Assembly (NCBI GenBank): GCA_024278315.1 | Contig: JAJRTL010000466.1 | Location: forward strand, 1-37,248 | Origin: Planctomycetota bacterium | GTDB taxonomy: Bacteria > Planctomycetota > UBA1135 > GCA-002748355 | Direction of reading: 5' to 3' | DNA length: 37,248 nucleotides | Shown: positions 15,675 through 24,621 of the stretch, one piece after another | How the letters are laid out: every line of letters starts with the position of its first letter | How positions within the stretch are numbered: position 1 is the first letter of the stretch | Position numbers and translations under genes: made by a program | Notes under the pieces: generated by a model | What the model was told of the DNA's origin: nothing | The model's input: the letters and a program-made list of their open reading frames with translations, nothing else | Databases searched by the model: none

Positions 15675-16094
15675 TCAGGCCTCCAACTCTCCCCACCCGA
15701 AGTGGATCGGCACCTCGATGTCGGGGTGCAGGCTCTGTTGCACGGGACAAGTCCTGGCGGCCGATTCGAGCCGCTGCTGGTCCTTGGCATCCCATCCTGC
15801 GGGCAGGCTGAAATCGACCTCGATCTTGCCGATGCGCCGCAGGGGATCCGCCACCATGTGCTTGGTGATGCGAACGCGCGAGCCCTCGAGAGGTAGACCG
15901 TCTCTTTGCGCGACGATCCCCATGATCGTGATCATGCAGGCGCCCAAGGCCGTGGCCGCGAGATCCGTAGGTGAGAAGCTCTCCCCCTTCCCCTGGTTGT
16001 CGACAGGGGCATCGGTCTGCAGCTGCGTGAGCGAAGGACCATGCTCGGCCTTCGTGCGCAGCGAGCCTTCGTAGACGATCTTGATCTCGACCAT
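15675..16094 (-). CDS. OsmC family protein
   Basis: GESFSPTDLAATALGACMITIMGI and ARTCPVQQSLHPDIEV, two conserved Cys of OsmC/Ohr-like proteins. Confidence 0.87.
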   Translation of the reverse strand: MVEIKIVYEGSLRTKAEHGPSLTQLQTDAPVDNQGKGESFSPTDLAATALGACMITIMGIVAQRDGLPLEGSRVRITKHMVADPLRRIGKIEVDFSLPAGWDAKDQQRLESAARTCPVQQSLHPDIEVPIHFGWGELEA

Positions 16095-16154
16095 TTCACT
16101 TCACCTCGTTCGTAAGCGAGACTCGGTCCCTGACCTCCCACGCGCACGCAGGTC

Positions 16155-16646
16155 TCAGGACTTCTTGCCCGGCTTGCGCCGCCCGAGCTTCAGGATGTGC
16201 TTCCACTCGGCAGCACTGACCGGCTGGATCGAGAGACGTGAACCCTTGCGCACCAGCATCATATCCTGGAGAGCAGGGTCTTCCTTGACCTCTTTCAGCG
16301 TCACGGGCCTTGGCAGTCTCTCCTGGAAGCGGATATGCACCCAGAACCAGCGTGGGTTCTCGGGATCACTCTTGGGATCGAAGTACTTGGCCTCGGGATC
16401 GAACTGCGTCTCGTCCGGAGCTCCTTCGCCCACGACTTCGCAGACGCCGACCACGGCCATGGGTGCAACACGCGAGTGATAGAAGAGGACTCCGTCGCCC
16501 TTCTTGATCTCATCGCGCAGGAGATTGCGCGCCTGGTAGTTGCGGATCCCATCCCAGGGCTCCACTCCATCCCGCTCCATGTCATCGATGCTGTAGGCGT
16601 CCGGCTCGGACTTGAAGAGCCAGTATTGCTTTTTCCTTGCTGCCAT
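16155..16646 (-). CDS. EVE domain protein
   Basis: QYWLFKSEPDAYSIDDMERDG...WDGIRNYQARNLLRDEIKKGDGVLFYHS...MAVVGVCEVV. Confidence 0.9.
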   Translation of the reverse strand: MAARKKQYWLFKSEPDAYSIDDMERDGVEPWDGIRNYQARNLLRDEIKKGDGVLFYHSRVAPMAVVGVCEVVGEGAPDETQFDPEAKYFDPKSDPENPRWFWVHIRFQERLPRPVTLKEVKEDPALQDMMLVRKGSRLSIQPVSAAEWKHILKLGRRKPGKKS

Positions 16647-16663: not shown

Positions 16664-17698
16664 TTAGCGGAGGATGATCGAGTGTTCGCCCTTGGGCTTG
16701 AATCGACCGATGACGGCCGCGGCAGGCGTCTTGCGCACTTCCAGCTCGCTCAGCAACTGGTCGACCTTGTCCTCGGCGACGCCAATCAGGAGGCCGCCCG
16801 AGGTCTCTGCATCCAGGGAGAGATCCACGAGGTGGACGTCGAGTCCACTTCCGATCAGGAGGTCATCCCCGAGATAGCTCCGGGTGCGCTTGGCCCCGCC
16901 CGAGATCATGCCGCCCGCGACCAACTCGTAGGCCGACTCGAAGACCGGTACCTTGTCCAGGTCGATCTCGACCGTGAGTCCCGAACCGTGCGCCATCTCG
17001 ACGGCATGACCACTGAGGCCGAAACCCGTCACATCGGTCATGGTGTCGGCCTGCACCGCTTCTGCGGCCTCGGCTCCGCCTTTGTTCAGCGTCGCCATGC
17101 AGTCCATGGCCCTTCGGGCGATCTCCTCGGAGATCTTCTCGCTCTTGATGCCGGTGGCGATGGCTCCCATGCCGATCGGCTTGGTCAGCACAAGGACATC
17201 CCCTGCCCGGGCCCCCGCGTTGGTCAGGATGCGATCGGGATGGATACGACCGGTCACCGAGAGTCCATACTTGATCTCGGCATCCCGCACGGAATGGCCA
17301 CCGATGAGCATGGCCCCGGCCTCGTCGATCTTTTCCTGACCTCCCAGGAAGATCTGTCCGAGGAGATCCAGGGACAGTCCACTCGGCCAACCCACGATCC
17401 CCATGGCCGTGAAGGGTGTCCCCCCCATGGAGTAGACATCGCTGAGTGCATTGGCAGCAGCAATGCGCCCGAAGTAGATCGGGTCGTCCACGATGGGTGG
17501 GAAGAAGTCGAGTGTCTGTACGAGGGCCAAATCCTCGGAGATGCGGACGACGCCGGCATCATCGAGGGTAGAGGTCCCGACCAGGAGCTCGGGATAGTCC
17601 CGCTTGGGCAAAACGCTGAGGGCCTTCACGAGGTCCTCGGGGGAGAGCTTCGCAGCTCAACCAGCGCAGGAAGCGTAGTTGGTGAGTCTTTCGTCCAT
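16664..17698 (-). CDS. selD: Selenide, water dikinase; selenocysteine-containing (in-frame TGA at 17657-17659)
   Basis: Reading TGA as Sec gives MDERLTNYASCAGUAAKLSPEDLVKALSVLPKRDYPELLVGTS..., matching the SelD active-site region; downstream SelD motifs GGHSVRDAEIKYGLSVTG, TDVTGFGLSGHAVEMA, DAETSGGLLIGV. Track starts the ORF after the TGA. Confidence 0.93.
17618..17638 (-). promoter_or_regulatory. Candidate bacterial SECIS hairpin of selD
   Basis: GAGGACCTCGTGAAGGCCCTC: GAGG(A)CCU / AGG(C)CCUC stem with CGUGA loop, loop about 27-31 nt 3' of the UGA, with G as the second loop base. Confidence 0.6.
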
Positions 17699-17813: not shown

Positions 17814-19247
17814 TCAGCTTTCTGGCAGGTCCGGGGAGGAGCCTCGGAGCGACTCGAAGAGCAGCGGCAGCTCCGCGTCTTCTTCGGGCTGGAGGGAGCG
17901 CAGATCCATGAGGAACTCGTCGTTCTCGATGCGACCCCATAACGAAGGCCGAGCCGCCCGCAGGCCTGCCGCCAGGTCCTCGACCTTGCCATCTCCATCG
18001 GCCCATCGGATGCCAAGGGCGCGACTGCTGAGCGCGCGTGCCGGCGTGGCGCCCGAGCCGACGAAGGCCAGCCCGGATCGCAAGTGGACCTCAAGGCCCA
18101 GCCGGGTGCAGACCGGCTTCATGGCGGTGCGCAGTGCCTCACCGCGTCGCTCCAGCTCCTCCACCGACATGAAGATGGACCGCAGCACCGGGATCTCCTG
18201 CTTGGGCTCTCCGAACCGGTAGACGGCCAAGGTCGCTTCGAGCACGGCCAGGGAGAGCTTGTCCAGACGCAGGGCGCGGTAGAGCGGGTGGCTCGCACAG
18301 CGATCCACGAAGGCCTTCTTGCCGATCAGAATCCCTGCCTGGCAGGAGCCGAGCAGCTTGTCCCCGGAGATGGAGATCAAGTCCACGTCTTTGTTCAGTG
18401 TCTCGATCACCGAGCGCTCGCGCGCGTCATGGGGCAAAGGCTCCTCGAGGAGGTAGCCCGAACCCAGATCCTCGTAGACGGGCAGACCGTGCTCGCGCCC
18501 CAGCGTGACCAGGTCCTCCAGAGGCACCTCCGCCGTGAACCCCTCGATGCGATAGTTGCTTGGGTGCACCTTGAGCAGACAGCCGGTATCCGCGTCGATG
18601 ACGTGCTCGAAGTCGGCCAGGCGCGTCTTGTTGGTGGCCCCCACCTCGACGAGGATGCAGCCGGCCCTCTCCATGACGTCGGGCATCCGGAAGCCACCGC
18701 CGATCTCCACGAGTTCGCCCCGCGACACCGGTACCTTCTTGCCGCGCGCCAGGGCGTCCAGCGCCAGGAGTGTGGCTGCCGCGTTGTTGTTGACGACCAG
18801 GGCCGCCTCGGCACCGGTCAAAGCCATGAGATGCGCGGCCACGGCATGCTCGCGGCGGTTGCGCTTGCCGGTGTCGGGATCCACCTCCACGGTGGCGGCA
18901 CCACAGACCTCGGCCAATGCCGCCCGCGCCTTCGCCGCCAAGGGAGCGCGCCCCAGGCCCGTGTGCAGGAGAATGCCGGTCGCATTCAGGACACGTCTGT
19001 GCCAGGGGCGCTCGAGCTCATCGCGAAGCCCAAGCAGCCTCGCCGACAGGGCCTCCTCACAGAGCAGGGTCTCTTCGCCGCCGGCAGGAGGCCAGTCCCT
19101 CTGCATGCGTTGCCTGAGCTCATCGACGAGCCGCCGGGCGGCCTCGCGGCTCAAGGCCTGGGGAAGACCCTCCTGCAACCTCAAGAGCCGATCGATGGAC
19201 GGGAGTTTGCGGAAGGCGTTCGTTGGCGTTTTGTCGGTGGAAGTCAT
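17814..19247 (-). CDS. selA: L-seryl-tRNA(Sec) selenium transferase
   Basis: RVLNATGILLHTGLGRAPL, VNNNAAATLLAL, RGELVEIGGGFRMPDVMERAGCILVEVGATNKT, SISGDKLLGSCQAGILIG. Confidence 0.95.
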   Translation of the reverse strand: MTSTDKTPTNAFRKLPSIDRLLRLQEGLPQALSREAARRLVDELRQRMQRDWPPAGGEETLLCEEALSARLLGLRDELERPWHRRVLNATGILLHTGLGRAPLAAKARAALAEVCGAATVEVDPDTGKRNRREHAVAAHLMALTGAEAALVVNNNAAATLLALDALARGKKVPVSRGELVEIGGGFRMPDVMERAGCILVEVGATNKTRLADFEHVIDADTGCLLKVHPSNYRIEGFTAEVPLEDLVTLGREHGLPVYEDLGSGYLLEEPLPHDARERSVIETLNKDVDLISISGDKLLGSCQAGILIGKKAFVDRCASHPLYRALRLDKLSLAVLEATLAVYRFGEPKQEIPVLRSIFMSVEELERRGEALRTAMKPVCTRLGLEVHLRSGLAFVGSGATPARALSSRALGIRWADGDGKVEDLAAGLRAARPSLWGRIENDEFLMDLRSLQPEEDAELPLLFESLRGSSPDLPES

Positions 19248-19436: not shown

Positions 19437-21173
19437 TTGCACAGATACCAGGGGATCCAACTGGCGGAGCCGGGCCCGGCGGAAGAACTGCGCATTCTCG
19501 GCCGGGACCTGGGTTGCTCCGAGCCGCTGGCCCAGGTGCTCTGGCAGCGCGGCCACAGGGATCGCGTCGCCGCGCGGGCCTATCTACGCCCAAGCACGGA
19601 CTCGCTGCACGACCCCTTCCTCTTTGGCGACATGGAGAAGGCCGTCGAGCGGATCGAGCAGGCCCTGGCCGAGGACGAACTCATCCTCATCCATGGCGAC
19701 TACGATGCCGATGGCCTCACGGGCACGGTCCTCCTGCTGCGGCTGCTGAAGCTCCTGGGAGGCCGGGCACAGGCGCACATCCCCGCGCGCAGCGAGGGTT
19801 ACTCCTTCGGCAAGGAGTCCATCACCCGCATCCTCAAAGGAGGCTTCGGGCTCTGCATCTCGGTCGACAACGGGACGGCTGCGCGCGAGGAGATCGCGAC
19901 GATACAGGCCGGGGGCTGTGACGTCATCGTCACCGACCACCACAGCAGTGGGCCCGATCCCGCCAAGGCCTTCGCGCTGCTCAACCCCCGCCAGGCCGAT
20001 TCGGGCTATCCCTTTGCGGACCTGGCAGGCGTTGGCGTGGCCTTCAAGCTCGCCTGGGCACTCGCCTCGCGGCAGCGCCGCCGTCGCTCGGTCGAGACGC
20101 GCCTCGGTGACTTCCTCCACGAAGCCGCCGCCTACGTGGCACTGGGCAGCGTGGCCGATGTCGTTCCGCTCGTAGGCGAGAATCGCTATCTCGTCCGACA
20201 GGGCCTCGACGCCTTGGTGCACGCCAGCACGCCGGGCCTGCGTGGCCTCATGCATCTCCTGGGCACATCCCCCACGCGACTCACGGCGCGTGACATCGCC
20301 TTCCGCCTGGCTCCCCGGCTCAATGCCGCGGGTCGCATGGCCCACGCCTCGCTCGCGCTCGACCTCCTGCTGGCCGAGACGACCGGTGAGGCCGAAGCCT
20401 GCGCACGCAAGCTCGACCAGCTCAACCGCCGTCGCCAGAAGACCGAGGCCATCGTCTGCGCCCAGGCCGAGAGCCGTCTGGAGCGCGACCCCACCCTGGC
20501 CGACAAGCGCGTGCTCTGCACCTGGGACCAGGACTGGCACCTCGGGGTTCTGGGCATCGTTGCCGCGCGGCTTGCGGGCTACTTCGAGAAGCCCTCCCTG
20601 GTGCTCGCCATCCACGGAGACGAAGCCCGGGGCTCGGGGCGGAGCTTCCAAGGCATCCATCTCAAGGATCTCCTGGACCGTGTGGAAGGAGTGGATATGC
20701 ACTACGGAGGGCATGCGGCTGCCGTGGGCCTCCACCTCGCCGCCAAGGATCTGCCCGCCCTCGAAGCGGCTCTTCAGGTCGCCGCCGCCAAGGGCAGAGC
20801 CGCACCGAAGCCACAGCCCCTGCTCTGCGAGGCAGAGGCCAGTCTCGCCCACTGGTCCTCGAGCCAGCTCAAGCGCCTCTCAGAGTTCGGGCCTTTCGGA
20901 CAAGGCAACGCCGCGCCGCGTTTCCTGGCGCAGCCCGTCCGCATCGGCGCGGGCCTGCACGCCCAAGGGCCGGACAACCGGGATCTGGCCTTCACGGCCA
21001 TCCAGGACGGCTGCGCCCTCCCAGCCCAGGCCCGGGGTCTGGGCCGGCACATCGAGGAGCTCCGCGTGCGCGACAGACTCTGGCGGATGGCCTACAGCCC
21101 ACGTTTCTCGGCACGTCCCGAACTGGGTGCCATCGAGATCGAGATCCACGACTTCGAACCCTGTCGGGACTGA
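19437..21173 (+). CDS. recJ: Single-stranded-DNA-specific exonuclease RecJ (TTG start proposed)
   Basis: LIHGDYDADGLTGT, IVTDHHSSGPDP, ALGSVADVVPLVGENR, RLAPRLNAAGRM, YGGHAAAVGLHL; purine-rich GGGGGAGAAGAGAG before TTG. The N-terminal part of the track ORF (from 18084) is antisense to selA. Confidence 0.9.
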   Translation: MHRYQGIQLAEPGPAEELRILGRDLGCSEPLAQVLWQRGHRDRVAARAYLRPSTDSLHDPFLFGDMEKAVERIEQALAEDELILIHGDYDADGLTGTVLLLRLLKLLGGRAQAHIPARSEGYSFGKESITRILKGGFGLCISVDNGTAAREEIATIQAGGCDVIVTDHHSSGPDPAKAFALLNPRQADSGYPFADLAGVGVAFKLAWALASRQRRRRSVETRLGDFLHEAAAYVALGSVADVVPLVGENRYLVRQGLDALVHASTPGLRGLMHLLGTSPTRLTARDIAFRLAPRLNAAGRMAHASLALDLLLAETTGEAEACARKLDQLNRRRQKTEAIVCAQAESRLERDPTLADKRVLCTWDQDWHLGVLGIVAARLAGYFEKPSLVLAIHGDEARGSGRSFQGIHLKDLLDRVEGVDMHYGGHAAAVGLHLAAKDLPALEAALQVAAAKGRAAPKPQPLLCEAEASLAHWSSSQLKRLSEFGPFGQGNAAPRFLAQPVRIGAGLHAQGPDNRDLAFTAIQDGCALPAQARGLGRHIEELRVRDRLWRMAYSPRFSARPELGAIEIEIHDFEPCRD

Positions 21174-22068: not shown

Positions 22069-24621
22069 TCAGTTCTTCTTGGGGTCAGCCTTCTTGGGGT
22101 CGGCCTTCTTCGGGTCGGCATTCTTCGGGTCGGCCTTCTTGGAGCCGGCCTTCTTGGGGTCCTCGTCCTTGCGATCTGACGAGGTTCCGACCGCGCCGGT
22201 CTCGGTCGACTTGTACTTGAACCGGGCAATGACGGCCTCGGGGCTGTACGCGTTCTTCAGGATGGAGTCGAATCGTTCGGTGGAGAAGCGGATGCGGCGT
22301 TCTGCCATCGACCGGCGGGTCACGAGATCCATGCCGCCCTCTTTGCGCTCATCCAAGCGGACGACGTAGTAGGTCTGCTCCACGGCTTCCTCCATGACAT
22401 CGGAGACCCAGCCCTCCTTGGCGGCCAAGAGAGTCGTATCGGCTTCCAGGAACTTCTCGGCACCATCCTCCAGCAGAGAGAATCGCGCAGTCTGGCTGGC
22501 GTCCTTCGTGAACGGGCCGAGCTGCTGAACCTCGATACCCTGTTCCTTGAGAGCCAGACCGAATGCCTCGGCCATCTTGGGCTTGAGCTTCTTCTTGAGC
22601 TCGATCTCCAGCAGGTCCTCTTCGGTCTTCTTGATCTCGGCCTTCTTGTCGTCGGCCTTGGACAGCTCATCGTTCCAGGCCTGGATGTTGGTCTTGCGAC
22701 GAGCGATCGATCGTGCGGGCAAACCTCCCGCGGCGATTTCCTTCTCGGTATCCGCGATCATGCTCTCCAGTTTCTTTTTCCAGGCATCGAAATCCCCGTC
22801 GATCTTTTCCCTGCAGGCCTTGCGCATCTTGGCCACTTCTTCCGCCAGGAGCCCTTCGGCCTGGGTGCGGACGAGCTTGCGGAAGGCCTCGGCCTTCTCC
22901 TTCATCTCGTCGACGGCCTTCTGCTTGGCATGGATCTCCTGTGCCTCGGTGCGAATCTCCTCGATGGGTCTCACCACATCCTCGATCCGATCCGTGAGCT
23001 GGAAGAAGAAGGCCCCGTTCTGTGCCATCTGCACATCGGTTCCGAGCTCGCCCTTGCCGAAGACCTCGCGAAGCTTGTTGGTCGCTTCCCACACTCCGTA
23101 GGGTGAACCCTCACGGAAGGACTCGGGCCTTGCGGCCTTGGGGATACTGACGAAGAGAAGACCCTTGGGGAGCTTTCCAGCTTCGAACTGGTCGGCCAGC
23201 CAGGTCTTCAGAACGAACTCCTCGAACTTCTTTGCAGGCCCGACGGTCTCCTTCTTTCCGGCCTTCCCTTCCTTGCCCTCTTTTCCTTCCTTGGCGGCCT
23301 TCTCCTTGGCGGCCTTCTCCTCTTCCTTCTCCCTCTTGGCAGCAAGGGAAGCGGTGTAGGCGTCGAGGGCCTTGCGTCGGATGGCCTCGAGGAGTTGCTG
23401 CACTTCGAGGCGGCGGCGAATCTGATCCTTGACCTGCTCCAGGGGGATGTAGTCCGGTCCCTGTTGCGGCGGGATGGGCAGCCCCCCCGCCGAAGCATCC
23501 GGCGGAGTCACCCCATCCTGCAGCGTCGTTCCCTCCGCTTCGCCTGGCTTGTCAGCGGATGCAGCTGCCCCATCCTGAAGGAGCCCACCATGCTCGTCCT
23601 GCTTCTTGCCCTCAGGGGTCTTCGTGCCTTCCGTGTCCGAGCCCTTCTTGTTGGCGTCCGGATCTCCAGGTTCCTTCTTGTTGGCGCCTTCCTTTCCAGC
23701 CTCAGGCTTTCCAGCTTCCTTTTTTCCCGACTCATCAGGAGCTTTGACTTCCTTGATGTAGAGCTGGTCCTTGTTCTGATCGTAGTACTGCTCGACCTCG
23801 GCATCTCCGATGGGCGCCATGTCCTTGATCCATGCGCTCAGCGGCTTGGGATCCAGTTGCTTGTAGTCGGCATACACCAGGTTCCAGGCCACGTGCACGT
23901 CGTCTACGAGGGGCCGCTTGCGTTCTGCGTCCTCGAGGTTGGCCACCCACTCCAAGAGGTCCTTGTCGGACGGCGGCTTCTTCTTGTACTCCTCGATGAG
24001 GGGCTTCGTCGCCCAAGAGGCATAGCTCAGCAGCAGGGTCTCCCTATCCTTGCGAACGAACTCACTGAGGACGGCATCACCAGCCTCCATGCCACCCATG
24101 ATCTCGAGATAGACGTAGTTGGAGATCCGGATCGCCTCGCGGACGAGCAACTCCAACTCGGCCACACTCGTAACGCGGGAGCGTGGCCCGAGGTAGTGGA
24201 GGGGGTTGAAATCCTCGGCCTTGAGCTCAGGGTTGGCCTGGAGACGCAGCTTCTTGCCCACCTCGATGGCCTGGCTGACATCGTCATCGCTGACATCGAT
24301 GCCCGCCGCAATGGCGGCCCGGCGCAGGATCATGACGGCCTTCACATGCTCGCCCTGACCAATGGCAGCCGAGTTCGAGAGCCAGGCAAAGGGAGCCAGC
24401 GCACTTCCCCCCTGCAACTGCAGGTTGGAAAGGCTCTGAGCCAGAGCGCTGTCCTCGATCTCGATGGCGATCTTTTCCCCGTTCGGCATCACGATCGACC
24501 CCAAGCGGTTGGAAATAAAGAGCTGCGTAAAGAAGCCCATGACCGGCGCTGAGATCGAGAAGACGAGGAGGCAGAAGATCGCAACCCCGATGATCAGGTA
24601 TCGCTTGGTAGTCTCGTTCAT
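22069..24621 (-). CDS. Membrane-anchored PpiD/SurA-like folding factor with low-complexity Lys/Glu-rich segments
   Basis: Single N-terminal TM (YLIIGVAIFCLLVFSISAPVMGFFTQLF) then SurA_N-like helical region; central AKEKAAKEGKEGKEGK and C-terminal DPKKADPKKADPKKN repeats. Confidence 0.65.
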   Translation of the reverse strand: MNETTKRYLIIGVAIFCLLVFSISAPVMGFFTQLFISNRLGSIVMPNGEKIAIEIEDSALAQSLSNLQLQGGSALAPFAWLSNSAAIGQGEHVKAVMILRRAAIAAGIDVSDDDVSQAIEVGKKLRLQANPELKAEDFNPLHYLGPRSRVTSVAELELLVREAIRISNYVYLEIMGGMEAGDAVLSEFVRKDRETLLLSYASWATKPLIEEYKKKPPSDKDLLEWVANLEDAERKRPLVDDVHVAWNLVYADYKQLDPKPLSAWIKDMAPIGDAEVEQYYDQNKDQLYIKEVKAPDESGKKEAGKPEAGKEGANKKEPGDPDANKKGSDTEGTKTPEGKKQDEHGGLLQDGAAASADKPGEAEGTTLQDGVTPPDASAGGLPIPPQQGPDYIPLEQVKDQIRRRLEVQQLLEAIRRKALDAYTASLAAKREKEEEKAAKEKAAKEGKEGKEGKAGKKETVGPAKKFEEFVLKTWLADQFEAGKLPKGLLFVSIPKAARPESFREGSPYGVWEATNKLREVFGKGELGTDVQMAQNGAFFFQLTDRIEDVVRPIEEIRTEAQEIHAKQKAVDEMKEKAEAFRKLVRTQAEGLLAEEVAKMRKACREKIDGDFDAWKKKLESMIADTEKEIAAGGLPARSIARRKTNIQAWNDELSKADDKKAEIKKTEEDLLEIELKKKLKPKMAEAFGLALKEQGIEVQQLGPFTKDASQTARFSLLEDGAEKFLEADTTLLAAKEGWVSDVMEEAVEQTYYVVRLDERKEGGMDLVTRRSMAERRIRFSTERFDSILKNAYSPEAVIARFKYKSTETGAVGTSSDRKDEDPKKAGSKKADPKNADPKKADPKKADPKKN
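22072..22161 (-). repeat. 15-nt in-frame repeats encoding DPKKA/DPKNA/GSKKA
   Basis: + strand reads GGGGTCGGCCTTCTT-type units about six times in tandem. Confidence 0.85.

Follow-up and report, generated by a model that had tools for sequence, protein, structure and literature searches.

In bacteria, the activated selenium from which selenocysteine (Sec) is built is produced by the enzyme SelD, and the question raised by this locus is whether the selD gene of a planctomycete is itself a selenoprotein gene, with an in-frame TGA near its start read as Sec, or begins only after this codon, as the conventional open reading frame has it. The window, that is, the whole stretch of 37,248 nucleotides analysed, contains selD next to selA, and the features discussed below are collected in Table 1.

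Table 1. Position of selD, its neighbour and the associated elements; coordinates refer to the window, except in the last row.
Feature	Position	Strand	Remarks
selD, selenophosphate synthetase	16664..17698	-	344 aa, Sec at codon 14; TIGR00476 match
In-frame TGA, read as Sec	17657..17659	-	Matches the catalytic Cys in E. coli SelD; codon 17 is Lys; TGA kept in relatives
Predicted bacterial SECIS hairpin	17618..17638	-	GAGG-A-CCU-CGUGA-AGG-C-CCUC; pairing and synonymous conservation
selA, L-seryl-tRNA(Sec) selenium transferase	17814..19247	-	TIGR00474, 457.6 bits, cut-off 267.9
Further candidate selenoproteins	G000 contigs C116, C118, C200, C103, C158, C127, C471, C355, C477, C112		Loci L093, L079, L083, L084, L086-L089, L101, L102

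Reading frame, catalytic site and conservation of the TGA

As read on the minus strand, the frame that opens at ATG 17698 gives MDERLTNYASCAG-U-AAKLSPEDLVKAL and continues to a TAA stop at 16664, being intact apart from a single TGA. The table-11 ORF comprises only 321 aa (16664..17629) and starts with MKALSVL at GTG 17629, the first start codon past the TGA; gene callers lose the front end of SelD because of the in-frame UGA. The preceding in-frame stop upstream is TGA 17716-17714, so that ATG 17698 is the sole ATG, GTG or TTG start available before codon 14; no obvious Shine-Dalgarno sequence was seen upstream of it. The preliminary description had proposed that SelD is a selenoprotein cut short in the ORF track, and its coordinates, codon number and sequence were all correct when the strand was read again.

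When the TGA is translated as Sec, the product matches TIGR00476 with 363.4 bits (cut-off 125) over residues 4-311 and PRK00943 with 320.7 bits (cut-off 299), and it aligns with E. coli SelD (3u0o) over nearly its full length with 219 bits, so the match spans the TGA and the assignment to the SelD family is not in doubt. The segment RLTNYASCAGUAAKLSP aligns with RLTQYSHGAGCGCKISP of 3u0o, and an equivalent alignment was obtained with the SelD of 2yye (SSGCAAKVGPGDL). Therefore, the TGA occupies the place of the catalytic Cys, with the Lys three residues on (UxxK), as had been suggested from the DNA alone; the U/CxxK signature of SelD is present, and the UGA is aligned with a Cys both in E. coli SelD and in two relatives of the same order (G023 and G009).

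A full-length SelD was available from 58 other genomes in the order, and 56 of them carry exactly one in-frame TGA. It was read directly at the exact site in 51 of these, while in the five remaining ones, where the N-terminal site lay outside the pattern match, it was counted only by the single in-frame TGA. The exceptions are Cys-type, with TGT in G023 (L026) and TGC in G009 (L062). U at the site is also carried by four relatives in GTDB contigs at 57-64% identity (three titled Planctomycetota and one uncultured bacterium) and by one from Thermodesulfobacteriota at 45% identity. The alignment across the TGA together with the TGA of the relatives confirms, at the level of sequence comparison, that the in-frame TGA at codon 14 is not due to chance. 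A sequencing or assembly error, or a pseudogene, in which a Cys codon is read as TGA would require a change of one base only, and Cys codons (TGT or TGC) occur at this site in two relatives; nevertheless, the recurrence of the TGA in separately assembled genomes, the otherwise intact frame and the synonymous constraint on the hairpin described below leave such an explanation a negligible probability. In G023, selB and tRNA-Sec still exceed their cut-offs, which suggests that Sec was replaced by Cys inside a Sec-decoding lineage.

The residues upstream of the TGA are also conserved in the relatives, and this conservation speaks against a SelD start at MKALSVL, a possibility that had been named beforehand as one that could overturn the proposal. 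The TGA might instead be a true stop, with a shorter SelD translated from GTG 17629, which is indeed where an ordinary table-11 ORF begins. However, such a product would be devoid of both the catalytic residue and the Lys, the residues preceding the GTG are aligned in E. coli SelD as well, and the genome contains the Sec machinery; we consider a true stop extremely improbable.

Sec-decoding machinery and further candidate selenoproteins

The proposal of an adjacent selA on the same strand held, the gene lying 115 nt upstream of selD. The absence of selB or selC had been put forward as evidence that would count against Sec decoding, and both were found: a full-length selB (contig C476) with 341 bits against a curated cut-off of 242, and a tRNA-Sec (contig C363) with 78 bits against a cut-off of 47, for which ARAGORN gives a tRNA-Sec fold of 98 nt and the anticodon UCA. 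The genome thus has selA, selB, selC and selD, the set by which bacterial Sec decoding is recognised; selB and tRNA-Sec are placed on contigs other than that of selD, the completeness of the assembly being 84.78% and its contamination 1.06%. The selenouridine synthase (ybbB, TIGR03167) was not found in the genome at this completeness. Among seven other members of the family that were searched, tRNA-Sec was over the cut-off in all and selB in six, the seventh (G007, 66% complete) showing a separate match to the C-terminal part of SelB. Another relative, G014, has a full selB (353 bits) and neither a full SelD match nor a tRNA-Sec over the cut-off, a pattern that reflects either missing contigs or a loss in progress.

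Searches with a few protein families revealed at least ten more candidate selenoproteins in the genome, each with one TGA at a redox-active position: FdhA (SRA-U-H), a SelW-like protein (CQMU), a peroxiredoxin (TPTU), two AhpD-like proteins with CxxU (HCLYU and HCYYU), and five thioredoxin-like proteins, of which four have WUGPC and the fifth WUAGC. Since the candidates carry TGA at such positions, the use of UGA as Sec appears to be general in this genome, and the organism is a candidate selenoprotein-rich planctomycete. When the window was scanned for other frames that look coding but are interrupted by a single TGA, seven purely mechanical candidates emerged, every one of them on the plus strand.

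With regard to the neighbourhood, the selA-selD order is retained in every relative of the order that was checked. Genes for an EVE-domain protein and an OsmC-like protein directly follow selA-selD (15675-16646, minus strand), as they do in several relatives, and we know of no functional link of these genes to selenium. Upstream of selA, a 422-aa ORF (19584-20852, minus strand) has no Pfam match and shows 31-34% identity to ORFs upstream of selA in four relatives. Elsewhere in the window, an 850-aa ORF (22069-24621, minus strand) has no Pfam match at E <= 0.001.

The predicted SECIS hairpin and the Cys at position -3

A predicted SECIS hairpin begins 18 nt past the UGA, with a stem formed by GAGG/CCUC and CCU/AGG and the loop CGUGA. 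The DNA downstream of the UGA could be aligned without gaps in 21 sequences, in which 94.6% of the cells were compatible with pairing, as compared with 31-64% when one side was slid by 1-3 columns. Paired changes were observed, the bottom pair being G-C, A-U or C-G, and the pair at columns 25-39 reading G-C ten times and A-U equally often. By itself, the support from covariation is modest, because independent changes are few and the shuffle control was only partly exceeded. The synonymous-codon test gives stronger evidence: in a nine-codon window over the hairpin, synonymous agreement reached 0.84 of same-residue pairs against 0.45 expected, the highest of 322 selD windows, and when synonyms were shuffled within the gene 500 times, 0.84 was never attained anywhere in selD; the shuffles ignore relatedness, for which the rank against the other windows of selD is the control. 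Such a peak is as expected for an RNA signal overlapping the code, as a bacterial SECIS would be. Folding of the region as a single sequence did not make the hairpin stand out (z about -1.1 to -1.2), so the case for this stem-loop, a hallmark of selenoprotein genes, rests on comparison.

The preliminary description had further noted a Cys three residues before the Sec, expecting Ser or Ala at this position, and raised the idea of a CxxU redox pair. The expectation proved wrong, as Cys is the commonest residue there among 50 sequences of the order (Cys 29, Ser 8, Ala 6, Gly 6, Lys 1). This frequency could be taken to indicate that Sec-14 and Cys-11 act as a redox pair in addition to the role in selenophosphate synthesis. 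However, within the family to which the window belongs (n=7), four sequences have Cys, two Ala (G005 and G007) and one Ser (G003), with Gly or Ser elsewhere in the order, and Cys-11 is not conserved like a resolving cysteine. Because Ala, Gly and Ser are unable to form a bond with Sec, an essential or obligatory CxxU pair is unlikely in SelD, and the idea that the two residues form a redox pair at all seems doubtful in the extreme. A frequent yet non-universal Cys could also serve as a CxxU selenenylsulfide switch tuning selenophosphate supply to the redox state, which we regard as marginally less probable still.

Proposed mechanism and relation to known systems

We conclude, with a probability of about 97%, that selD is a selenoprotein gene in which UGA 17659-17657 is decoded as a catalytic Sec, a reading suggested earlier and supported by selB, the tRNA-Sec, the adjacent selA, the conserved TGA and the SECIS-like hairpin; no evidence of weight was found against it. 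According to the mechanism that we propose from gene, site, machinery, conservation and hairpin, SelB and Sec-tRNA(UCA) would insert Sec at this UGA, directed by the SECIS hairpin just 3' of it, and Sec-14 would be the catalytic residue of selenophosphate synthetase. SelA would take the selenophosphate supplied by SelD to make Sec-tRNA, and SelD would thus both require and sustain its own decoding system.

Previous studies place this arrangement among well-known ones. Sec is present in 19% of the SelD genes of reference prokaryotes, always at one position, the rest having Cys, and the misannotation of selenoprotein genes is already known in general (PMC4561486). SelD has been listed with the motif UxxK and entered as an experimentally verified family (PMC9312934), and both Sec-to-Cys changes in SelD and remnant SECIS structures have been described (PMC1794560). 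The Sec-type SelD/SPS of bacteria and archaea (COG0709) and the eukaryotic SPS2 share with the planctomycete protein the family, the Sec position and the downstream Lys, and in Sec-type systems SelA, SelB and tRNA-Sec coexist as they do here; the difference is one of sequence divergence only, the Cys at -3 being found in many relatives. In contrast, Cys-type SelD, such as that of E. coli (3u0o), has Cys where the planctomycete has Sec. Within the phylum, one report describes Sec machinery and selenoproteins in the Porphyra-associated planctomycetes P1 and P2 and in Gemmata and Isosphaera (PMC4807772), and to that extent Sec decoding is shared at phylum level with the planctomycete studied here. 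A Sec-containing SelD is a common arrangement, and the present case is real, well supported and ordinary rather than novel.

For the field this is a routine case, by which the annotation of selD is corrected with respect to its start and its Sec residue, and by which this planctomycete lineage is shown to possess the genes for Sec decoding. The conserved hairpin of selD could, moreover, be used to train SECIS models for high-GC planctomycetes.
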